Source: an uncultured Pirellula sp.
Lineage (GTDB): Bacteria; Planctomycetota; Planctomycetia; Pirellulales; Pirellulaceae
DNA: 57,689 nucleotides
Direction: 5' to 3'
NCBI GenBank assembly: GCA_903930765.1
Contig: CAIYZV010000108.1
Coordinates: 1 to 57,689, forward strand
Below the pieces are notes generated by a model. The model saw nothing but the letters and a program-made list of their open reading frames with translations, had not been told where the DNA came from and did not search any database. The position numbers and the translations under genes were made by a program. Positions 2,131 through 25,603 of this stretch are shown here, in pieces; the first letter of the stretch is position 1, and each line of letters opens with the position of its first letter.

Positions 2131-3891
2131 TTAAAAGATGTCGGGTTCTTTTCCCGAATCGTGACCTTCTAAGAAGTCAAAGTCGCAGCCTTCGTGGGCT
2201 TGGGTCACGTGTTGGCTGTAGAGGTAAGTATAACCGCGCGTCGCGGTACTTGCGGGAGGCTTCCAAGCCGATCTGCGTTGCTCCATTTCCTCGGGGGAAA
2301 TGCATAATTCCAACCGCCGATTAGGAACATCCAACGCGATCACGTCTCCTTCACGTACCAGCGCCAATGGCCCACCCGCCGACGATTCCGGAGATATGTG
2401 CAAAACGCATGTGCCGTAACTGGTACCACTCATGCGTGCATCCGAAATACGCACCATGTCACGTACGCCTTGCTTGAGAAGTTTTTCCGGTATGGGAAGC
2501 ATCCCCCACTCGGGAAATCCCGGAGCGCCGATGGGGCCGCCACTTTTGAGGACCAATACCGAGTCTGCCGTCACATCGAGATCCGGTGAGTGGATCCGTT
2601 TCTTCAAGTCGGCATAGTTCTCGAATACCACCGCGAGCCCGCGATGTTGCAGCAGTTGCCCCGTCGACGCCGACGACTTGATCACACAACCCATGGGTGC
2701 CAAATTCCCCCGAAGAACGCAGGTGCCGCCATTGGCATAGACGGGATTATTTCGGGGACGAATCACGTCTTCATCGATGATTCTGGCCCCATCGATGGAG
2801 GCCCGCAATGTCCTGCCATCGATACTCCTAGCATCCAGATGCAGTAAATCCTGCAAGCGAGACCAAAGGGCAGGCAAGCCTCCCGCGTGATGAAAGTCCT
2901 CCATCAGATACTTGCCGCTAGGACGCAGATTGAGAAGGACCGGAACGCGTTGAGACAAGCGATCGTAATCCTCGAGCGCAATTCTTTGCCCCGACCGACG
3001 AGACATGGCGATCATGTGGACAATCGCATTGGAAGAACCTCCGATGGCCAACTGCGTCGTCATCGCATTCTCGAACGACTCCCGTGAAAGGATGCTGCAC
3101 GGTTTGCGATTCTCCCATGCGATCTCTACCGCCATGCGTCCTGTCGCAACCGCGAGTCGACTGTGTTCGGCGACAACCGCCGGTACGGAACTAGCACCCG
3201 GCAGGGTGAAGCCTAGAGCTTCGGCGATGCAAGCCATCGTGGATGCGGTCCCCATGGTCATGCACGTCCCCGCCGAACGCGCGATGCAATTCTCAATCTC
3301 AGTCCAATCCCCATCGCATAGATTGCCGGCACACCTCTCCGCCCAGTACTTCCACGCATCCGTCCCACTCCCCAGGGTCACGTCGCGCCAGCGAGCATTG
3401 AGCATCGGTCCGGCCGGAAGAAAAACCGACGGAACATCAGCAGAGATGGCTCCCATGAGGAGCCCGGGCACGGTTTTGTCACAACCACCCATGAGCACCG
3501 CAGCATCGATGGGGTGACTGCGAAGCACCTCCTCGGTTTCCATCGCCAGTAGATTTCGGTAGAGCATTGTGGTCGGCTTCATCAGCATCTCACTCAGGCT
3601 CAGAACCGGTACCTCCACCGGAAACCCACCCATCTGAAGCACGCCCCGTTTCACCTCCTCCGCCCGCTCGCGCAGATGGGAATGGCATGTGCTGAGATCG
3701 CTCCACGTATTGAGCAGACCGATCACCGGCCGGCCTCGGTAATCCGCATCGTCGATGCCCATCCCTTTGAGACGCGAACGATGCCCGAAGCTTCGAAGAT
3801 CATCCGGACCGAACCATCGATGGCTCCGCAATTGAGACGGATCCCGATCCCTCGACCGTGCATCTGGATTCAAATTGGAATCATGCGCCAT
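2131..3891 (-). CDS. IlvD/Edd family dehydratase, probable sugar-acid (arabonate-type) dehydratase
   Basis: An iron-sulfur dehydratase. With the start at 3891 the three expected cluster cysteines are in STCHSH (Cys69), MGGCDKT (Cys137) and SAGTCMTMG (Cys210), followed by the C-terminal small domain with KSGGPIGAPGFPEWG and SDARMSGTSYG. The sequence style fits the sugar-acid branch (L-arabonate/xylonate dehydratases) better than branched-chain IlvD. I chose ATG 3891 because GGAGAGGGGGG precedes it; the frame stays open to 3963 but would then overlap upp. It lies between upp and the DHDPS-like gene on the same strand, with 31 and 18 nt gaps, consistent with an operon. Product dihydroxy-acid dehydratase activity is not excluded. 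Confidence 0.85.
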   Translation of the reverse strand: MAHDSNLNPDARSRDRDPSQLRSHRWFGPDDLRSFGHRSRLKGMGIDDADYRGRPVIGLLNTWSDLSTCHSHLRERAEEVKRGVLQMGGFPVEVPVLSLSEMLMKPTTMLYRNLLAMETEEVLRSHPIDAAVLMGGCDKTVPGLLMGAISADVPSVFLPAGPMLNARWRDVTLGSGTDAWKYWAERCAGNLCDGDWTEIENCIARSAGTCMTMGTASTMACIAEALGFTLPGASSVPAVVAEHSRLAVATGRMAVEIAWENRKPCSILSRESFENAMTTQLAIGGSSNAIVHMIAMSRRSGQRIALEDYDRLSQRVPVLLNLRPSGKYLMEDFHHAGGLPALWSRLQDLLHLDARSIDGRTLRASIDGARIIDEDVIRPRNNPVYANGGTCVLRGNLAPMGCVIKSSASTGQLLQHRGLAVVFENYADLKKRIHSPDLDVTADSVLVLKSGGPIGAPGFPEWGMLPIPEKLLKQGVRDMVRISDARMSGTSYGTCVLHISPESSAGGPLALVREGDVIALDVPNRRLELCISPEEMEQRRSAWKPPASTATRGYTYLYSQHVTQAHEGCDFDFLEGHDSGKEPDIF

Positions 3892-3922: not shown

Positions 3923-4657
3923 TTAGCGAATCGTGTTAAACATCCGATCGCCAGCATCGCCAAGCCCCGGCACGATGTACTTGTGCGAGTTCAACTCCTG
4001 ATCGACGGAAGCGACATAGACCGTGACGTCCGGGTGCTCTCGATGGAACAACTCAATACCCTCCGGAGCAGCAATCACACTCAAAACGCGAATGTTTTTA
4101 ACACCCCATTTCTTCAATGCGAGAACCGCCGCTCGAATGGATCCGCCAGTCGCGAGCATAGGATCGAGAACCATTCCGACGTGAACCGGATTTTCCACAG
4201 GGAGCTTGCTGTAGTACTCGACCGGCTGCGCGGTTTCTTCATCGCGATACATTCCCAAATGCCAGACTTCAGCATCGGGAAGCAATCGCAACACAGGATC
4301 GACCAATCCTAATCCCGCTCGCAGGATTGGCACGAGCGCTATTCGCTGAGAAATCCGTTGACCATCCATCGAGCACAACGGCGTCTGCAATCGATACCGT
4401 TCCAACTCCAGATCTTCAGTCGCTTTCACGGCTAACAACATCGACAACAACTGCACTTGGTTTCGAAACTGCGACGACGTTGTTTTCGTATCGCGAAGTA
4501 TCGAGAGGTGGTGAGCGGCGAGCGGATGGTTCAGTTCGACGACTCGCGATTTACCAGTTTCAGGCACCGCAAAAACTCCCATGGATTGACTGTTTTGAAT
4601 AGAGCCCAGTTTGAATACAGCCGTCCCAAGACGACTGCCGGACGACGCATGAAGCAC
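3923..4657 (-). CDS. upp: Uracil phosphoribosyltransferase
   Basis: Makes UMP from uracil and PRPP in pyrimidine salvage; cytoplasmic. The PRPP-binding signature DPMLATGGS is at about residues 165-173. The family N-terminal motif VVELNHPLAAHHLSILRD and the C-terminal uracil-binding part (YIVPGLGDAGDR) are clear. I chose GTG 4657 because AGGAG lies 8 nt upstream; this gives about 40 residues before the conserved HPL motif, longer than the usual few. An alternative start is ATG 4582, which has no good ribosome site. It is followed 31 nt later by the IlvD/Edd gene. The function is secure and the start uncertain. Confidence 0.93.
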   Translation of the reverse strand: MLHASSGSRLGTAVFKLGSIQNSQSMGVFAVPETGKSRVVELNHPLAAHHLSILRDTKTTSSQFRNQVQLLSMLLAVKATEDLELERYRLQTPLCSMDGQRISQRIALVPILRAGLGLVDPVLRLLPDAEVWHLGMYRDEETAQPVEYYSKLPVENPVHVGMVLDPMLATGGSIRAAVLALKKWGVKNIRVLSVIAAPEGIELFHREHPDVTVYVASVDQELNSHKYIVPGLGDAGDRMFNTIR

Positions 4658-17466: not shown

Positions 17467-17743
17467 CTCAGCCGAGTGGGTGCGCAACCGTGAAAATGGA
17501 ACTGCTAGCAAAATCCGAAGCCTTTCTAGGCTGCTAAATCGATTGAAATCTGCAGAAAGATGTCAAGATTTGCGGGTTATGCGTCCGAAATCATTTCTAT
17601 CGATTCTCTGGAATGTACCTAGTGAAGGCCCAAGCAGTTGCTTGTGCGTCTTGACGGGAGCGACTCAGTCCCATAGACTTCGATGCAGTAAAGTCTATTG
17701 CACAAACGACTTAGGTTGCATTGAAGTTTGTAGGAGTTCGGTC
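17467..17743 (+). other. Leader and promoter region of the HU gene
   Basis: This stretch is formally open in the HU frame back to 17480, but the translation is unlike any HU extension. A GTG at 17744 preceded by TAGGAG fits the conserved protein start. I see no other gene in this roughly 280-bp region. Confidence 0.5.
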
Positions 17744-18145
17744 GTGACAAAGAAAGAGATCGTGAAAACGATTTCCGACGAGACGGGACTCAACCAGCAG
17801 CAGATCAAGCAGATCGTCCAAAAGACGTTTGATTCGATCGTAGCGACGCTGGTCGAGGAAGGCCGGATTGAGTTGCGGAATTTCGGGGTATTTCAGGTCC
17901 GTCCTAGGGCGGCACGAAAGGCTCGCAATCCGAGAACCGGCAAGCAGGTTGAAGTGCCCGAGAAATTCGTGGTCAGCTTCAAACCTGGCAAGATCATGGA
18001 GGAGCGTGTGAACTCAATCGAGGGAACACCGCTCGCTCAAAAGATTCGCGACGCAGCGGCATCAGGAGATCTGGATGTCGGGCTAGACGCGGACCTGGAT
18101 AGTGATCTAGACACCTTCTCCGAAGGAAACGATTCCGAAGGCTAA
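17744..18145 (+). CDS. HU/IHF-family DNA-binding protein with acidic C-terminal tail
   Basis: 133 residues from GTG 17744, chosen because TAGGAG lies 8 nt upstream and the translation [15 protein letters not shown] is the classic HU start. The DNA-binding arm is [20 protein letters not shown], then [11 protein letters not shown] closes the roughly 95-residue HU core. Beyond it is an unusual tail of about 40 residues that becomes strongly acidic ([16 protein letters not shown]). HU bends and compacts DNA; acidic tails on such proteins can modulate DNA binding or make protein contacts. It is followed 22 bp later by a small lipoprotein gene on the same strand. Confidence 0.9.
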
Positions 18146-18167
18146 ACAGTTCACGGAGTAAGAACAG

Positions 18168-18389
18168 ATGCGACGTCGAGTCATGATGGGTTTGTTGCTA
18201 TCGTTGGCTGCACTTCCTACGGTTGGTTGCGCCTTGCCGATTTATTCGGCCCTTCCCTCGCGTCGAGCGGAGCAGCTGATTTTTACCTCGGAAAACCTCC
18301 GGGCATTGGTTCAGGAATGGGAGCGCTTTTGGTTCCTTGACCAACCTGACCACATGACCCCCTACCGTACTCACGGCGGTGTGATCTAG
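18168..18389 (+). CDS. Small putative lipoprotein
   Basis: 73 residues. GGAG lies about 10 nt before ATG 18168. The N-terminus is a lipoprotein signal (MRRRVMMGLLLSLAALPTVGC) with a lipobox cysteine at about residue 21, leaving a mature part of about 52 residues. The C-terminal half is rich in aromatic and charged residues (EWERFWFLDQPDHMTPYRTH), suggesting a conserved surface. I recognise no domain. It follows the HU gene by 22 bp and may be co-transcribed. Function unknown. Confidence 0.65.
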   Translation: MRRRVMMGLLLSLAALPTVGCALPIYSALPSRRAEQLIFTSENLRALVQEWERFWFLDQPDHMTPYRTHGGVI

Positions 18390-18504
18390 GATCCAACCGT
18401 TGCCGAACGGGCAGGGTTCTTCATCCAGGGAAACCCTCGGTTCGATGCGGGTGTCAGGATCGACGAGCTTCGCTTTCGCCGAGGCAACGACCGCGATCCG
18501 CCGA

Positions 18505-21500
18505 TCATTCCACACGACAACTAACCCGATTCGCCAATTCCTGAAGGCTTGGAGTCGGGTGGTAGACCCGCTCGAGAACCGTGTCTAGGTCCAACCGTTC
18601 CCCGACCGACAAGACGGTGCAGTTGGTTGAAATCGGGTCTGAAATCACGGTCGCACTCTTTTCGTGCGCTTGTTTGAAGTGTCGATCCTGGAGCAACTGG
18701 CTCAACTCGTCGCTAATCATCAAGACATTACGCAACAGCCCACCGTAGTCGAGAAGCTTCGATCGAACACGATCGAACTCTTCACCGATGTCTTCGTTCT
18801 CGACTTCAAGTATACGACGAACTCGGAAAATGCTGCTGCTCGCTTCCACTCTCTGCGATGGAAGCACGGCCACACCGACATCGCCCTTGGCAGGATTTAC
18901 CTCGTCGGACGTCGACCCCATCGAGGACAGAGTCGTGGACGGCGACTCCGGGCCGTCCTCCTTGTAGGATTCCACATACTGGCTTTGCCTTTGCGTCGCC
19001 TCAATAATTGCTTTGACGCAAGGGAACAATTCCTTCAGTTCCACGCGCTCACTTCGCTTATAGCGTTGTGATTCTTCCTTGATGCTCCATGCGTGAAGAA
19101 GACGGATATGGGTGTGATCGAGCAGGTAGGAGCTAGCGGCATGAGTAAAAGCGTCCTTGCCTAGCTTTGCGAAGTCCGGCGTTTTCGAATTGAAGTCCTT
19201 ATCCGCGATTTGCATCTTGTCCAGGATGGGTTGCGACAAACTCATCAGATCCTTGGACAGCTGTTTCGCGTGATTCGCCCACAATATACCTAAGTACTTG
19301 ACATGTCCGGCGAGGCGATTGAGCATTTGAGAGGCGAGCGAGTAAATGCGAGCCTCCAGCGCGAGGGCTTCGAGCTTCAACTCCAATTCATGGGAAATAA
19401 TGTCTTTTCCTTCGTATGCGGTCTCGAGAACCTGATCGTGCTTACTGCAATGATCGGCAGCGATTCCAAGGAGTTGATTCGCATTTTCGAGCAACCTCTC
19501 ATACACGGTCTTCATGATGATGCCAAAATGCATCCAGCCATGCGTATCCCCGAGCAGATTTCGATCTATCCATTGAAAAAACTTCTTTCGCGAAGACTCT
19601 AAAAGATCGCAAACCGCTTGCGTCCCCTCATTGTTGTCGATCGCGAGCTTTTCGGCGATCGCATCGAGATCCGATTGCTCTTGCTCAAGAATACGAGAGC
19701 CAAAGATATTCTGAGCAGTTTTTCTATCTGGATAAATTGGCGTACTCGCAGGTTCCTGCTCTGCCTTTCCGCTTTGCGAGGAAATCGTCGCCATCAACTG
19801 CTTGACCCAAGCGTCAGCACTCCAACCGCAGGCACTAAACAGATTCGAAACCCAAAACAAATCTGTTTGTTCGTGTTTCTTCTCACTACCCGGATCGCAA
19901 TTCTGCAACTCTCCTAAATCCGCTATCGTGCGATTGAGGAGGGATGTCCACGCCTGGATTGCCAGCAAACAGCATCGGTTGGCGGAGCCCTCGCTATCGG
20001 AAAAGGAAGCCAGATCCAGCGACGCCAGACCGATCGTTCCTAGCCATGGCAACCCCTGAGTATCATGTGTTTGATCCAGCCGTTTTTTGTCCCGCAAACG
20101 CATCCATGCCAGCCGGTGTCCTAAATCCGTGTGATCTTGTCCCCACGCGTACGCCACGGCTTGGTCAACCCCATATTGCCAATCGCGTTGCTCGCCCAAA
20201 ACTCCACCTGGGACCAAAGTGACATAGTCAAACGGTGGTTGATCCACTGCGATCGATGCAGGAAGCGAGGCGAGCGAAGTGTGAAGCCCTCCCGACTCAA
20301 AGTACTCGCTGATTTCCTTGAGGCATGAGTACGCTGAAGCGGCGGCCAGATCGCCGTTATTGTGTTGCGATGTATCCGCGCAAAGAAGTATCAGTTCGGT
20401 ATGCAGGTCGATCTCCATCGCGGCGGAAATCTGGCGAAGCATGAATCCCAACTCCGAAACCATGGCGCTTCCAGTACCACCGTGGGCCGATGCAATCAGA
20501 TACACCGTCAACGAACGCCGCCCCGACTCTTCGCCTACCAACTCATCAATCGTGTCCACCAACCTGTCGAAACATATTCGAGCTTGGTCTAAAAATGCCA
20601 ACAATCCCAATGGCCTTACCCCTTCGGTCTTCTGTGACCTTGGAATATTGTAGATCCATCGACGGCTGATTCGGAGCAGGTCTGGCGACGTGGATTGCCT
20701 GTAATACTGAGATGAGTTGAGTCGCAACGGGAGAACCGCGGAATGGGGTAATGGGATCGGCTGCGATGCGTCTAGTATCCGCTCAATAGCATTGTTGTCC
20801 GTGTCCAGATAAAGGCATTGTGTCCGCTTGTCGTCCTTGCGAGCATCATCGGAATCCCGATACTCGCACCGTCCAACAATCTGTTGCACTGCAACACCCC
20901 CCGTACCGCCAATACCCAGATAGAGGATCCGCTTGGAACGGTGCATCTGGTCTGGGCCAATCGGAGGCATGGCGGTCTGCAATTCGATCGGACGAATCTC
21001 CCGCTCGAACTTCGGCATCTCCTCGGCGACCTGTTCGTTTGCGGATTGACGGAGGCTGCGCCCCGAAAATCGCCGAGCCGCCCCCCGATTCGCCGGACTT
21101 GCCGGACTCGCCGTGCTTTGCTTTTCCGCAACCGGTGATGCCAGCTTAACCTCTTGCCGCGTTTCAGATAGGGCACGAATAAACTCGCGGCAGTCCCCAT
21201 AACGCATGTGTGGTTTTTTCGATAAGGCCTTGCTTAGAATTGGCCGTTCCAGCAGTGGAACAGCTTCCAAGTTCGGCGCTTTGTGCAGATGCTCGTTCGC
21301 CAGCTGCGCCGCAGTCCTACCTCGAAACGGTAGCGTTCCCGTCAATAGCTCTTGGTAAACGATCGCCAACGAGTACTGATCGCTATAACGCCCCGGCCGC
21401 CCATCGAATAACTCAGGGGCGGCATAGGTTGGTGTCATTCCGCTCATCATGGACTGGGAATTGGATTCCAATTCCTTGATCAACCCAAAGTCGGCGACCT

Positions 21501-21963
21501 TCACCCGGTCTGCGATCAAAAGCAAATTACCAGGCTTCACGTCCAAGTGTTGCAAGTCATGCTCTTGGCACAAAAAATCCAGTCCGTCAGCAGCATCACT
21601 GAGATAGCGCAGTAAGCGATCTCGGGCGATACCGATAAACCCCTTTTGTCGGTACTCGTTGTACTTGTCATGCAAGGAACCTTGCGCGAGCTCCGTTACG
21701 ATTGCTAATTGACCTTCGACAATCTCAACACGCTCAAGGGACAGAATAAAAGGGTGATTGAGCTTACGGATGCGATTTAAACTTTTCAGTTCCGTGGTAG
21801 CGCGGTTATCGTCGATGTTACCAAACACGAACTTGATCGCTTTCCGCAACCCACCGGGAGCATCAGAAAGCCAAACCTCTCCGTATCCCCCAGCACCCAC
21901 CTGCTTCCGGAGTATGTACCCTGGTATTGGTTCGTATCCAGGTTGAATGAGAGATCTGTTCAT
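18505..21963 (-). CDS. Ser/Thr protein kinase fused to tubulin/FtsZ-like GTPase domain
   Basis: 1152 residues. Residues about 16-270 form a Hanks-type kinase: G-loop VGAGGYGEVW (22-31), Lys44 in KAIKF, catalytic loop HLDVKPGN (139-146, with HLD in place of HRD), DFG (158-160) and YAAPELFDG. A Ser/Ala/Pro/Arg-rich linker runs to about 340. After it come ILYLGIGGTGG, a Rossmann-like first loop, and ASAHGGTGSAMV near 490, the glycine-rich GTP-binding signature of the tubulin/FtsZ superfamily (Tubulin_2-like families). The last 500 residues are helical and unrecognised. No transmembrane segment is obvious. It starts 3 nt after the AAA+ gene, so the two are translationally coupled. Confidence 0.8.
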   Translation of the reverse strand: MNRSLIQPGYEPIPGYILRKQVGAGGYGEVWLSDAPGGLRKAIKFVFGNIDDNRATTELKSLNRIRKLNHPFILSLERVEIVEGQLAIVTELAQGSLHDKYNEYRQKGFIGIARDRLLRYLSDAADGLDFLCQEHDLQHLDVKPGNLLLIADRVKVADFGLIKELESNSQSMMSGMTPTYAAPELFDGRPGRYSDQYSLAIVYQELLTGTLPFRGRTAAQLANEHLHKAPNLEAVPLLERPILSKALSKKPHMRYGDCREFIRALSETRQEVKLASPVAEKQSTASPASPANRGAARRFSGRSLRQSANEQVAEEMPKFEREIRPIELQTAMPPIGPDQMHRSKRILYLGIGGTGGVAVQQIVGRCEYRDSDDARKDDKRTQCLYLDTDNNAIERILDASQPIPLPHSAVLPLRLNSSQYYRQSTSPDLLRISRRWIYNIPRSQKTEGVRPLGLLAFLDQARICFDRLVDTIDELVGEESGRRSLTVYLIASAHGGTGSAMVSELGFMLRQISAAMEIDLHTELILLCADTSQHNNGDLAAASAYSCLKEISEYFESGGLHTSLASLPASIAVDQPPFDYVTLVPGGVLGEQRDWQYGVDQAVAYAWGQDHTDLGHRLAWMRLRDKKRLDQTHDTQGLPWLGTIGLASLDLASFSDSEGSANRCCLLAIQAWTSLLNRTIADLGELQNCDPGSEKKHEQTDLFWVSNLFSACGWSADAWVKQLMATISSQSGKAEQEPASTPIYPDRKTAQNIFGSRILEQEQSDLDAIAEKLAIDNNEGTQAVCDLLESSRKKFFQWIDRNLLGDTHGWMHFGIIMKTVYERLLENANQLLGIAADHCSKHDQVLETAYEGKDIISHELELKLEALALEARIYSLASQMLNRLAGHVKYLGILWANHAKQLSKDLMSLSQPILDKMQIADKDFNSKTPDFAKLGKDAFTHAASSYLLDHTHIRLLHAWSIKEESQRYKRSERVELKELFPCVKAIIEATQRQSQYVESYKEDGPESPSTTLSSMGSTSDEVNPAKGDVGVAVLPSQRVEASSSIFRVRRILEVENEDIGEEFDRVRSKLLDYGGLLRNVLMISDELSQLLQDRHFKQAHEKSATVISDPISTNCTVLSVGERLDLDTVLERVYHPTPSLQELANRVSCRVE

Positions 21964-21966
21964 GGA

Positions 21967-23682
21967 TTACCTCGTTGGCCGATCATAACTCGACGGCGAC
22001 TTCGGCGTCTCGGGTGGAATTTGAGCATTCGTCGGTCGTGGAATTTGCCCAGCAGGAACCGGACGGATTTTTCCTTCGGGTGCCATCTCACTGAGGATTT
22101 CCGAGATACCAAAGGGAGTACTTGCTACCGACGGTTTGGGTGCCACCGGCTGATGGACTCCATTCCCCCCAAGCCCTGAACGATTCGATATATTCAAAAC
22201 GCTGGTAAGTGGTGTGCTCGATGGAATAGGAGACACCGCAGACATAACCTGCGTCCCTTCCCCCCCCCCTAAATTGATCGGATTGTCGTTTCGATCTTGT
22301 GCGGTTTTATCCACCTCGGCGGCGTCTTTATTGCCTTTATCCAAAACATTGCCAGTACCAAAGTAGTTCCGGCAAACTTGGTCAATGAACTCATTCCTCA
22401 GTTCACAACGCTCGCCTCGGTAAGCCGCCAAGCACTGGATTTGATGAAGGAGATCCCTAGCATGGCAACGCCGGAATGACCTGCCTAATTTCCGATAATG
22501 CGTGTCGATCATTCGATCGATGATCTCGGGCCGCCAGACGATATCCATCGATTCGCAAGCGGCACGAAACAATTCAGTAAACTCCTCGACACTCGGATCC
22601 GCGATCTGGATCTTGAATGGTACACGTCGCATGAACGCTTCATCCACCAAAGATTCAGGATCCAAATTGGTCGAAAACAACACGATCTGCTCAAACGGAA
22701 CCGAGATTTTTTTACCCGTGGGTAACGTCAAGTAATCAACGCGATTCTCAAGTGGGATGATCCAGCGATTCAGAAGTTCCGCGGGAGCAATCCGCTGTCG
22801 GCCAAAGTCATCAATCAGCAAACATCCGCAATTGCTCTTGAGCTGCAATGGGGCTTCGCAGGTATTGCTTCGGGGATCGTGACGGATCTCTAAACTATCC
22901 ATCGTCAACTCACCACCGACAACTACGGAGGGACGCCGTACGCGAACCCATCGACGATCGTGTTCCTGATTGGCCATGACCCGATCGTTGGTCGATTTAT
23001 TGGTCGATCCGACATGATAGGTCGCATCGTAGAATTTGATGATCATCCCGTCATCGATAATCGCATGCGGGATCCAGATGTCTTGCCCACGGCACGCTGG
23101 TAAGCACTTTGCAATTGTGGTCTTGCCGTTTCCTGGAGGCCCGTACAAAAATACCCCCGAATTGCTATTCACCGCGGGACCGAGAAAATCGAGCCATTGC
23201 GGGTCATACGTCACATTGGACAGCGCAGCGCGAAGCTGGTTTTCCGTGATCGGCTCAAAACACCCAGCTTGGGCCTCAACGCTCAATACGTAATCCATCA
23301 AGGGTACGGGAACAGGGCCCGAATACGACATCGATTTCTGATAATGAAATGCGCGGTTTTGGCCGCTTTCCGTGACGCTGTAATAAAAATCATTCAGCGG
23401 CGCTGGCCTTGCATGCGTGATCAATTGACGCATGCGCAACTGCCCCAACTGCTGTTCAACGATCGGAAAAGGAATCCTCATCCGGTCACTGAGATTCCTC
23501 CCGGTCAAGGTGCCGACGTTTAAGAAAATCTGCAGCATGATCGATTCGATCACGATCTCGGAAACGCCACACTCTTCGAGAGTCTTCGGCTCAAAGGGCC
23601 AAAACGCATCTGTGTTGAGGACCGCCGGCAGAACGGTATTGTCCAAAGACATCGTATCGCGCATGTTCAAAAACGAACTCAT
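21967..23682 (-). CDS. AAA+ ATPase with N-terminal winged-helix-like region
   Basis: 571 residues from ATG 23682, chosen because GGAGG lies 6 nt upstream; the frame is open to 23769. Residues about 40-105 (VIESIMLQIFLNVGTLTG, SDRMRIPFPIVEQQLGQL) look like a winged-helix DNA- or protein-binding domain. The AAA+ core has Walker A GPPGNGKTT (about 182-189), Walker B CLLIDDF (about 287-293), sensor STNLDP and an arginine-rich lid (AFMRRVPFKIQI). The C-terminal 120 residues are Pro-rich and disordered. No HD-GYP, protease or helicase domain is visible. It is the first gene of a two-gene operon with the kinase-tubulin fusion and probably acts with it. Confidence 0.8.
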   Translation of the reverse strand: MSSFLNMRDTMSLDNTVLPAVLNTDAFWPFEPKTLEECGVSEIVIESIMLQIFLNVGTLTGRNLSDRMRIPFPIVEQQLGQLRMRQLITHARPAPLNDFYYSVTESGQNRAFHYQKSMSYSGPVPVPLMDYVLSVEAQAGCFEPITENQLRAALSNVTYDPQWLDFLGPAVNSNSGVFLYGPPGNGKTTIAKCLPACRGQDIWIPHAIIDDGMIIKFYDATYHVGSTNKSTNDRVMANQEHDRRWVRVRRPSVVVGGELTMDSLEIRHDPRSNTCEAPLQLKSNCGCLLIDDFGRQRIAPAELLNRWIIPLENRVDYLTLPTGKKISVPFEQIVLFSTNLDPESLVDEAFMRRVPFKIQIADPSVEEFTELFRAACESMDIVWRPEIIDRMIDTHYRKLGRSFRRCHARDLLHQIQCLAAYRGERCELRNEFIDQVCRNYFGTGNVLDKGNKDAAEVDKTAQDRNDNPINLGGGEGTQVMSAVSPIPSSTPLTSVLNISNRSGLGGNGVHQPVAPKPSVASTPFGISEILSEMAPEGKIRPVPAGQIPRPTNAQIPPETPKSPSSYDRPTR

Positions 23683-23983
23683 GGGTACCTCCGTGCTGGG
23701 CGTTATAGATGGTACAACCGTCACCATCGAAATGATCATCGTTGCGAATCGACTCCGACTCGGTCTCATAATCGGCTACGAAAGGAACAGCCTGCACGAA
23801 CAAACTTTATGTGCCGTTTATTCCGGGAAATATCGGATTGGCACCCCAGTTCACTCCCTTTGAGTGCCGATTCCGTAACCTACGATTCGGATGCGCGGGG
23901 TCTGTAGGTACGGACCAAACTCATGTCTGAATCAAAACATCCAAGCCATTTGCTGCATCCTTTTTCAACAGAAGTCTGGCGAG
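23683..23983. other. Divergent promoter region between AAA+/kinase operon and FHA-EAL gene
   Basis: About 300 bp between two divergent start codons. It must contain both promoters, so the two transcripts could be co-regulated. I could not assign -35/-10 boxes or an operator. The open frame across part of it (23769-23682) lacks a ribosome site. Confidence 0.5.
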
Positions 23984-25126
23984 ATGAGCAATCCTCCCTC
24001 CTCCATGAAAACCCCATTGTCGTCGATGGCCCGCCGGTTCGGCGTGGGAGAAAACAGGTCCGTATGGATTCTCGCCAGTGTCGGTCAACAAACCACTGAC
24101 AATCTGACCGTCATCCACCCTATGCCTTTCTCGGTTGGCCGCAAAGTCGGATGCAGCTTGCAACTTCCCTCGAAGACAGTTTCAGGTCATCATGCCGATC
24201 TCGTCGTTCGCGATGGAAAGCTGGTCGTGTTCGATCGCGAGAGCACCAACGGCACCTATGTCAACGGTCGTCGCGTGAAGGGGGAATGCGATCTCAACGA
24301 AGAAGACATGCTCCAGTTTGCAGACTTCGCCTTCCGCTTGAAAAAGGACTCCCACGCGTCAGCCATCAATACCGTCTGTGAAGACCTTTGCGACCAAGCT
24401 CTCGCGTTGGTCCAGTTCGACCGGTTGATGGAAAAGCGATTGGTAACCCCATTCTTCCAACCGATTATCCGACTCTCCGATTCCAAAACCCTCGGCTATG
24501 AAATCCTGGCCCGCAGTCGGATGTACGGCCTCGAAACTTCCGCCGCTCTCTTCGGAGCCGCCTCAAAACTGAGCATGGAAGTGGAACTGAGCCAAATGCT
24601 CCGCTGGGAAGGTATCCGGGAAGGATTGTCCCTCCCGCAACCCGCTGCACTCTACGTCAATACCCACCCCCTCGAACTCTCTCGCACCGGGCTCATCGAT
24701 TCGATGGTCCAAGTCCGGGAATTAGCACCCAACATTCCAATCACTCTCGAGATTCACGAAGCAGCGATCACAAAGCCCCATGAGATGTTCGAACTCCGAA
24801 AAGAACTTCGAGCCCTCTCCATCCAAATCGCCTACGATGACTTCGGCGCCGGCCAAAATCGACTCGCTGAACTTTGCAGCGCCCCGCCCGATGTTCTCAA
24901 ATTCGATATGGGACTCATTCGAGATATCGACAAAGCACCCGTCGAGAGGCTTAAAGTCCTTCGCTCCCTGGTCCAAATCGTTCTTGATCTAGGCGTGAAA
25001 GCCCTTGCCGAGGGGATTGAGACCGAAGCAGAAGCGAAGGTCTGTGCTCAGTTAGGTTTCACCCTCGCCCAAGGCTATTACTTCGGCCGCCCCTCTCCCC
25101 CGGCAAAGTTTGTTCCGGTAAGCTAA
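23984..25126 (+). CDS. FHA domain plus EAL domain protein (c-di-GMP phosphodiesterase-like)
   Basis: 380 residues from ATG 23984; the frame is open upstream to 23891. The FHA domain spans about 35-125 with the phosphothreonine-binding signature: VGRKVG (51-56), SGHH (67-70), STNGTYVNG (87-95). The EAL domain runs from about 145 to the end. Its catalytic residues look complete: E in YEILAR (EIL in place of EAL), N in YVNTHP, E in LEIHEA, the DD pair in YDDFGAGQN, K in LKFDMG, E in AEGIET and the QGYYFGRP end. Predicted to bind phosphothreonine proteins and to hydrolyse or sense c-di-GMP. A Ser/Thr kinase is encoded by the adjacent divergent operon, an obvious possible partner. Confidence 0.88.
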   Translation: MSNPPSSMKTPLSSMARRFGVGENRSVWILASVGQQTTDNLTVIHPMPFSVGRKVGCSLQLPSKTVSGHHADLVVRDGKLVVFDRESTNGTYVNGRRVKGECDLNEEDMLQFADFAFRLKKDSHASAINTVCEDLCDQALALVQFDRLMEKRLVTPFFQPIIRLSDSKTLGYEILARSRMYGLETSAALFGAASKLSMEVELSQMLRWEGIREGLSLPQPAALYVNTHPLELSRTGLIDSMVQVRELAPNIPITLEIHEAAITKPHEMFELRKELRALSIQIAYDDFGAGQNRLAELCSAPPDVLKFDMGLIRDIDKAPVERLKVLRSLVQIVLDLGVKALAEGIETEAEAKVCAQLGFTLAQGYYFGRPSPPAKFVPVS

Positions 25127-25180
25127 TCTGCTACGCGAAACCTTACGCACGCCCACGGATCCACATACACCCTCCCATCC

Positions 25181-25603
25181 ATGTTTTCACAGACCGTCGA
25201 GTACGCTTTGCGTGCAGTGGCTCATCTCGCCCTCAATGAAGGCACACCGCAAAAGACCTCCGTTATCGCCGAGAAGACCAAAGTTCCTGTCGCTTATCTC
25301 TCCAAGATTCTCCAAGAACTGCAGCGCAAGGAACTCGTATCTCTCCAACGTGGGATCGGTGGTGGCGTTTCCTTGACCCATTCCGCCGAAGTCTTAACCA
25401 TTCTCGACGTGATCAACGCGGTGGATCCTATCAAACGAATTGAGTACTGCCCGTTAGGACTCAAGTCCCATGGCGAGCGACTTTGCTCTCTGCATAGCCG
25501 CGTGGATGATAGCATCCAACACATGGAAAAGTCCCTCGGCGGAACCACGATCAGCGAGCTACTGAAAGAACCGAACCCCAGCCGGGCGCTCTGCGACTCG
25601 TAG
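25181..25603 (+). CDS. Rrf2-family transcriptional regulator
   Basis: 140 residues. The N-terminal winged helix (MFSQTVEYALRAVAHLAL, PVAYLSKILQELQRKELV, RGIGGGVSL) is typical of Rrf2/NsrR/IscR. Many members carry three cysteines that hold an iron-sulfur cluster in the region after the helix. Here that region has two cysteines 11 residues apart (EYCPLGLKSHGERLC) and another near the end (ALCDS), so a cluster is possible but not certain. It lies 54 bp after the FHA-EAL gene on the same strand and converges on the sulfatase. Target unknown. Confidence 0.88.
   Translation: MFSQTVEYALRAVAHLALNEGTPQKTSVIAEKTKVPVAYLSKILQELQRKELVSLQRGIGGGVSLTHSAEVLTILDVINAVDPIKRIEYCPLGLKSHGERLCSLHSRVDDSIQHMEKSLGGTTISELLKEPNPSRALCDS

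Follow-up and report, generated by a model that had tools for sequence, protein, structure and literature searches.

Tubulin_2 proteins (Pfam PF13809), also called FtsZl1, were discussed in 2010 by Makarova and Koonin (PMC2875224). In the available portions of that paper, four planctomycete members are stated to carry an N-terminal protein kinase, and the partners named for the family are vWA, GTPase and OmpA proteins; a referee pointed to one neighbour with FHA and EAL domains, which the authors set aside. The kinase-tubulin fusion is also mentioned in the accessible text of a 2023 paper and of a 2024 paper (PMC11032199). The open papers that we searched report no tested role for proteins of this family. 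Here we analyse such a fusion, encoded in a 57,689-nucleotide stretch of DNA (the window: contig CAIYZV010000108.1 of assembly GCA_903930765.1) from an uncultured Pirellula sp. of the family Pirellulaceae. All results are computational. The protein belongs to the kinase-bearing kind described in 2010, since the text seen of that paper states an N-terminal kinase in four planctomycete members, and its architecture is that of the cytoplasmic Ser/Thr kinases of planctomycetes which, in the 2024 paper, bear a tubulin-like domain; the accessible text of that paper does not speak of partners or structure. The fusion itself is thus already known, from 2010 onwards. Its recurrent partners, however, are an ATPase of the AAA+ type and a protein with FHA and EAL domains (FHA-EAL), and we give an even chance to the reading that these three genes form a conserved signalling module in planctomycetes, with the fusion at its hub. 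No description of an FHA-EAL/AAA+/kinase-tubulin module was found in the titles and abstract beginnings of the open literature; as far as these show, neither the module nor the insertion-bearing tubulin fold has been described there.

A kinase and a Tubulin_2 domain in one reading frame

An earlier note on this DNA, made from the letters alone, had proposed a Ser/Thr kinase fused to a tubulin/FtsZ-like domain, possibly of the Tubulin_2 type. Both parts were recovered in one open reading frame over their Pfam cut-offs, and the motifs quoted in the note are present in the translation.

18505..21963, (-) strand: kinase-Tubulin_2 fusion gene, 1152 residues, ATG start (open reading frame call and Pfam; fused relatives in the family)
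21235..21912, (-) strand: Hanks-type Ser/Thr kinase domain, residues 18-243, catalytic residues present, with HLD (non-RD) (Pfam and conservation in 94 sequences)
20950..21150, (-) strand: linker, residues 272-338, with a length of 30-134 residues among 94 proteins

The Pkinase family matched residues 18-243 (E 2.4e-28; 99.7 bits against a cut-off of 31.7) and PF13809 matched residues 347-587 (E 2.2e-15; 57.2 bits against a gathering cut-off of 27). The score for PF00091, Tubulin, was 16.6 bits and under the cut-off of 33, which in Pfam terms sets the protein apart from canonical FtsZ and tubulin. The fusion gene is the sole PF13809 match in the window's own genome. A phage origin was considered and rejected: 17 phage records matched the protein, all of the matches listed (the best 5 of the 17) were restricted to the kinase, and PHROGs gave zero matches at E<=0.01 for residues 338-1152.

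Conservation of the kinase and of the glycine loops was assessed in 94 full-length proteins (93 homologues and the window protein), four of 98 loci having been excluded as partial. The kinase catalytic residues were kept in all or all but one of the sequences, with K44 and N146 in 94/94, D141 and D158 in 93/94 and E58 in 93-94 rows. The arginine that precedes the catalytic aspartate in RD kinases is not present; the position is occupied by L140 in 94/94 sequences. By this motif the fusion falls among the non-RD kinases, which are generally regarded as independent of activation-loop phosphorylation. The earlier note had read HLD as a hint of unusual kinase control. Since it is invariant in the 94 sequences, HLD is no sign of unusual control of the fusion and is instead the norm of the family.

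The note had also supposed such a fusion to be uncommon; within its own lineage it is not. In a sample of 149 genomes from the window's family, PF13809 was matched in 100, including 74 of the 107 near-complete genomes (>=90% complete, <=5% contaminated), and 97 genomes, the window's among them, carried the fusion. Its 98 loci, one of them in the window, came from these 97 genomes, one contributing two; kinase and tubulin parts shared a single reading frame in 97 of the 98, the exception (L119; L and G numbers are our labels for loci and genomes) being truncated by the contig end. Among the remaining three genomes with PF13809, two (G021 and G051) had unfused genes, and in G132 the reading frame leaves the contig and the tubulin score resembles the fused ones. 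Across the phylum, 21 of 343 sampled genomes matched PF13809. Sixteen of these loci, from 15 genomes, lay outside the family; three were fused (G436, G452 and G460, all from one other family of the same class) and 13 had no kinase in the reading frame, in loci that were short and with several frames cut. Scanning named genomes yielded 80 loci; the kinase is in frame in 78 of them, and the other two have a reading frame open at the 5' end. The count is biased because the loci were selected by a clade-specific pattern. One locus filed under Candidatus Nealsonbacteria (L137) has a planctomycete fusion, its contig being most likely mis-binned.

An AAA+ ATPase and an FHA-EAL protein accompany the fusion

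Two neighbouring genes that the earlier note did not mention carry most of the functional information.

21967..23769, (-) strand: AAA+ ATPase gene, 600 residues, 3 bp upstream of the fusion (predicted model, Foldseek, motifs)
23891..25126, (+) strand: FHA-EAL gene, 411 residues, divergent from the ATPase gene (Pfam)
24131..24319, (+) strand: FHA domain, residues 81-143, a phospho-Thr reader by family (Pfam E 2.1e-15)
24419..25093, (+) strand: EAL domain, residues 177-401, phosphodiesterase residues present (Pfam E 8.4e-35)

Neighbourhoods were counted in the 85 of 98 loci whose upstream flank measured 3.5 kb or longer. The ATPase gene was next to the fusion on the same strand in 63/85 and within 5 kb in 75/85. 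A relative of the FHA-EAL gene lay no more than 3 kb upstream in 77/85, divergently in 58 and on the same strand in 19, and the exact gene order of the window recurred in 58/85. By our own arithmetic, one FHA-EAL gene per 6.5-Mb genome would be expected by chance within such a 3-kb window at fewer than 0.1 of the 85 loci. All-against-all clustering of the neighbours of the 98 loci placed the ATPase in 81 and FHA-EAL in 79, the next family reaching 19. The partners also followed the fusion across the 149 genomes: an ATPase above 435 bits was found in 90/97 genomes with the fusion and in 1/52 others, and an FHA-EAL protein above 200 bits in 81/97 and 6/52, with thresholds chosen after the lists had been viewed, kinship uncorrected and part of the 52 fusion-less genomes incomplete.

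The genes recur in further arrangements. FHA-EAL was downstream of the fusion on the same strand in 8 of the 80 named loci, for example in Lacipirellula and Botrimarina. In the second family the order was GGDEF, FHA-EAL, ATPase and fusion, all in one direction, in 3/3 fused genomes found; ATPase and fusion overlapped by 4 bp in two of the three operons, and the motif of the GGDEF genes was intact in 3/3 (L221:4190-5350, L222:13798-14850, L223:13696-14727). Because the three genes are found together in several orders and strands, their association outlives rearrangement. The partnership of the fusion with the ATPase and FHA-EAL is well supported, and the counts bear on the neighbour raised by the referee in 2010. 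At eight loci of the family where Tubulin_2 is unfused (L225-L230, L232, L233), both the ATPase and FHA-EAL were lacking.

An ATPase/kinase/tubulin triple fusion, suggested by open frames of 1517-1624 residues across the ATPase in a few genomes, was dropped because the ATPase is a separate reading frame wherever it stands beside the fusion in the 98 loci (e.g. L109, with an ATPase of 440 residues). One genome that already has a module bears an apparent second FHA-EAL/ATPase/kinase module (G063, contig C1244, places 1098-2180, 2412-3692 and 4014-4607), perhaps cut by the contig end. Among the other neighbours, a family that we take, by reading alone, to be sulfatase-like occurred in 16 loci at varied positions. 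The HU and Rrf2 genes next door in the window fell outside the neighbour families found in at least 8 loci; the HU-family gene (17480-18145 of the window) has about 88 residues ahead of its HU domain, and its true start is probably internal. Scans of 18150-25200 for promoter-like sites (0, against 4.7 in shuffled sequences) and terminator-like sites (6, against 7.3) were uninformative.

The FHA domain is kept where the EAL domain decays

FHA residues G83, R84, S98, H101 and N120 were invariant in 37 sequences, out of 66 collected. We compared FHA and EAL positions according to the placement of the gene relative to the fusion, the phosphodiesterase residues of the EAL domain being judged by what we take to be the relevant motif set. 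At the three tested FHA positions retention was complete: 57/57 for the divergent genes, 8/8 for the downstream ones and 22/22 for those on the same strand. The EAL positions were kept in 57/57 divergent genes except for one position (56/57) and in 7-8 of the 8 downstream genes, the misses being gaps, and in just 2-9 of the 22 same-strand genes. In 20 of these 22, Pfam at E<=0.01 recognised FHA in 20 and EAL in 15. Retention of the FHA domain across all groups is as expected if the kinase of the fusion writes a mark that FHA reads. The EAL fold of the same-strand group may serve as a receptor for cyclic di-GMP (c-di-GMP).

At 19 loci (e.g. L085:5017-6450), a gene with receiver, degenerate GGDEF and CBS domains stands divergently beside the FHA/degenerate-EAL gene. 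The GGDEF motif was present in 0/19 of these genes, the domains having been scanned in one. The two are apparently a pair of dead c-di-GMP enzymes that have been kept together.

The tubulin part has a predicted tubulin fold with a large insertion

The structure of residues 338-1152 was predicted from a 74-row alignment of this region with 73 relatives from the genome scan (mean predicted local distance difference test score, pLDDT, 79.9; predicted template modelling score, pTM, 0.64).

19903..20937, (-) strand: tubulin-fold GTPase-like core, to about strand S7/helix H9, residues 343-687 (PF13809, predicted model, Foldseek, VIA Z 26.8)
20896..20916, (-) strand: glycine loop T1, GIGGTGG, residues 350-356 (conservation analysis)
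20464..20481, (-) strand: glycine loop T4, GGTGSA, residues 495-500 (conservation; position 500 is G in 83/94)
18799..19857, (-) strand: helical, partly disordered insertion in the tubulin fold, residues 703-1055 (predicted model)
18508..18789, (-) strand: C-terminal alpha/beta subdomain of the tubulin fold, residues 1059-1152 (model; VIA alignments; conservation, 74 rows)

The loops are presumably equivalent to T1 and T4 of FtsZ and tubulin, and S7 and H9 are probable assignments made by the order of the elements. A Foldseek search with the model returned 16 matches at E<=0.001, all of them by description tubulin/FtsZ-superfamily or microtubule chains, with archaeal CetZ first. VIA-align superposed the model on CetZ (3zid) with a Z score of 26.8 and a root-mean-square deviation of 3.4 Å over 299 aligned residues. 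The two share 15% identity, and CetZ, a 360-residue chain, differs from the fusion in having neither kinase nor large insertion. CetZ reportedly controls archaeal cell shape, according to a 2015 paper. The support for the predicted fold is modest in its Foldseek E-values and TM scores (TMt up to ~0.5). A search of PDB sequences with the relatives' alignment returned CetZ at E 0.018; most of the other matches were to helical proteins and due to chance. FtsZ, TubZ and eukaryotic tubulin have the fold (by Foldseek and VIA-align) and the glycine loops in common with the fusion, which differs from them in its PF00091 score under the cut-off, its loose T7 acids, its kinase and its insertion of ~350 residues.

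The VIA-align alignments reach model residues 806-815, from which the C-terminal tubulin subdomain would also be present, at residues 1059-1152. R1146 is invariant and R1150 nearly invariant there in the 74 rows. The insertion, judged by the order of elements, probably sits between H9 and S8; it contains long predicted helices at residues 807-851 and 858-917, and residues 961-1055 are modelled at low confidence. Its length varies, the aligned region 660-1054 spanning 229-396 residues among the 94 proteins. The fusion shares with FtsZl1 a Tubulin_2 match over the cut-off, the GTPase-like domain and long helices. In the available portions of the 2010 paper (PMC2875224), T6-H7 was not confidently identified in FtsZl1 and no similarity to the C-terminal domain was found, whereas our model displays such a subdomain. 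For this branch the 2010 account would therefore be qualified, a C-terminal tubulin subdomain being visible in the model behind the helical insertion.

The earlier note had tied its proposal to a tubulin fold around the second glycine motif and to conservation of that motif among homologues. The 16 of 16 Foldseek matches bear out the former, and the latter holds for its leading glycines: G352 of the first loop was found in 94/94, and G495 and G496 of the second in 94/94 and 93/94. The remainder of GGTGSG is variable (T497 65/94, G498 77/94), the window protein having A at position 500. A DxD at 387/389, kept in 71 and 67 of the 74 rows, may be T2. E550 and R450 are each present in 74/74, and an invariant RRWxYNxP patch is outstanding in the tubulin part. 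The zone of T7, residues 588-648, holds no strictly conserved acid, and the exact position of T7 is uncertain; the best columns for its acids are 604 (D/E in 56/74) and 619 (D/E in 49/74), and the window protein has A at both. Taken on these residues, GTP binding by the tubulin part is likely and GTP hydrolysis in the usual mode uncertain. The note had suggested a GTPase that either polymerises or acts as a switch; with its glycine loops kept and its T7 acids loose, the sequence by itself favours neither.

The neighbouring ATPase is an AAA+ protein

Walker A and B motifs of the ATPase (G.PGNGK and DDFG) were invariant in 55 aligned sequences. The model predicts an AAA+ part at residues 157-470, and we read residues 46-132 as a probable N-terminal winged helix; the mean pLDDT of 70.4 reflects disorder at both ends. 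Foldseek matched an uncharacterised Pyrococcus protein, Lon, RuvB, BchI and NorQ; NorQ and CbbQ, of the MoxR clade, were among many AAA+ matches, none dominant. The Pfam AAA family scored 17.3 bits, slightly under the cut-off of 21.2. With both Walker motifs and a predicted AAA+ fold, we assign the protein to the AAA+ ATPases. A distant copy, ~44% identical, occurs in many genomes of the family (e.g. L237:3963-5888); in six loci (L237-L242) no neighbour was common to more than two.

Weighing of alternative functions

That the fusion forms filaments which shape membranes under its own kinase, with the c-di-GMP genes as merely co-regulated neighbours, strikes us as unlikely, though well worth considering. 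Such a polymer would accord with the tubulin-like fold and its predicted C-terminal subdomain, with the long helices modelled in the insertion, and with the membrane-remodelling role proposed for FtsZl1 in 2010 (PMC2875224, available portions). Canonical FtsZ was, moreover, not seen in the 149 family genomes: PF00091 matched in two of them, each time at a Tubulin_2 gene, whereas it matched in 13 of 14 control genomes. The general argument made in 2010 from a co-resident FtsZ is for this reason inapplicable here. The T7 acids, however, are not strictly conserved, and the vWA, OmpA and P-loop GTPase partners of that proposal did not turn up among the neighbour families that recur beside fused genes (at least 8 loci; one such family, of 10 loci, was unscanned). 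For vWA, this negative covers the scanned neighbours in the window and the identified recurrent neighbour families of the 98 loci. It is the unfused Tubulin_2 genes that adjoin vWA/PKD genes instead: in 3/3 of those scanned, the adjoining PKD gene also matches vWA weakly (E 7e-4 to 4e-7), an arrangement that brings to mind the vWA/FtsZl1 loci reported in 2010. That no canonical FtsZ was seen might also suggest a substitute for it in the division of budding planctomycetes, a tubulin-fold protein being present in 97/149 genomes. We regard this as scarcely credible: PF13809 was not found in 33 of the 107 near-complete genomes, including the window's congeners G105 and G123 (96 and 99% complete), so that the fusion looks dispensable for division and is unlikely to serve the family as its general division GTPase; that candidate was rejected. 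No division genes were seen among the identified recurrent neighbours, and the fusion is not mentioned in the available text of a paper on planctomycete division (PMC5147048).

An anti-phage or conflict system, in which kinase and NTPases act as a stress trigger, would have a parallel in the GTPase-centred systems with tubulin domains that Kaur et al. described in 2020 (PMC7159879). The available portions of that paper describe proteins of the tubulin family whose C-termini are coiled or helical and which lie next to NTPases, as here; they place these in firmicute and actinobacterial loci with GAP1 GTPases and vWA and mention no kinase fusion or FHA-EAL. The kinase matched the PADLOC models mad6 (E 4.1e-36) and PD-T4-6 (E 2.3e-34), and the ATPase weakly matched IetA (E 2.4e-8). 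These matches, however, are confined to the kinase domain and short stretches of the ATPase, FHA-EAL matched none, and the partners are fixed across much of the family rather than changing as effectors do; we judge a defence role improbable. A possible account, which on balance we doubt, is that of a nucleotide-gated kinase whose tubulin part is a non-polymerising sensor of GTP or another effector, FHA-EAL being one substrate or adaptor and the EAL fold a c-di-GMP receptor. Conservation of T1, T4 and the possible T2 DxD alongside loose T7 acids fits such a sensor, as does the same-strand group, which loses EAL and keeps FHA beside the receiver/degenerate-GGDEF/CBS gene. The long helices and the invariant RRWxYNxP patch, by contrast, suggest protein-protein assembly.

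A number of observations weigh against the three-gene module itself. Neither partner was near the fusion at 4/85 loci, and at four loci (L103 and L110-L112) the ATPase was present and FHA-EAL not nearby. Among the 97 genomes with the fusion, 7 fell under the threshold for the ATPase and 16 under that for FHA-EAL, and six genomes had a strong FHA-EAL match without the fusion. A divergent ATPase/FHA-EAL pair in L243 lies ~28 kb from the fusion on one contig, and the ATPase is away from the fusion at four further inspected loci (L241, L244-L246). The window's genus represents a diverged tubulin branch, its five fused genes scoring 46.6-72.9 bits against PF13809 where others in the family reach 150.5. 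The linker holds only ~1.2 T..[DEILV] sites per protein, so a docking site for FHA is not pinned down. Because the same-strand EAL is mostly degenerate, enzymatic c-di-GMP turnover is not the universal output, and since EAL looks dead in one group, the c-di-GMP output is the weakest step of the mechanism proposed below.

Proposed mechanism

We favour the module of fusion, AAA+ ATPase and FHA-EAL, starting from the domains, the predicted tubulin fold, the kinase residues and glycine loops, the recurrent neighbourhood and the retention of FHA under EAL decay. Within it, the fusion would act as a scaffold that depends on phosphorylation and nucleotide and through which c-di-GMP signalling is steered. 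The tubulin part would bind GTP and then assemble or change shape, and its assembly would bring kinase domains together. The kinase could then phosphorylate threonine on a neighbour or on the fusion itself. A candidate for the latter is the linker, which is rich in Thr: in the 94 proteins it averages 8.2%, where the whole proteins average 5.2%. Docking of the FHA domain of FHA-EAL on that phospho-Thr would place or gate the EAL phosphodiesterase and, in the one other family, also the operon-encoded GGDEF cyclase, so that local c-di-GMP would vary with the scaffold's state. Remodelling or disassembly of the complex would most likely fall to the AAA+ ATPase, by analogy with AAA+ action on other assemblies. 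As a whole, a tubulin-based c-di-GMP hub that is GTP-responsive, phosphorylates itself, recruits FHA-EAL (with GGDEF in one family), is reset by the AAA+ protein and converts a cytoskeleton-like state into second-messenger levels is a tentative proposal, to which we give a chance well below even.

The company of FHA-EAL, and of GGDEF in the second family, gives the kinase-fused branch of Tubulin_2 a concrete, testable job. Budding planctomycetes alternate between swarmer and sessile stages in their life cycle. If the proposal is true, a tubulin-fold scaffold would be linked through phosphorylation to c-di-GMP in these budding bacteria.

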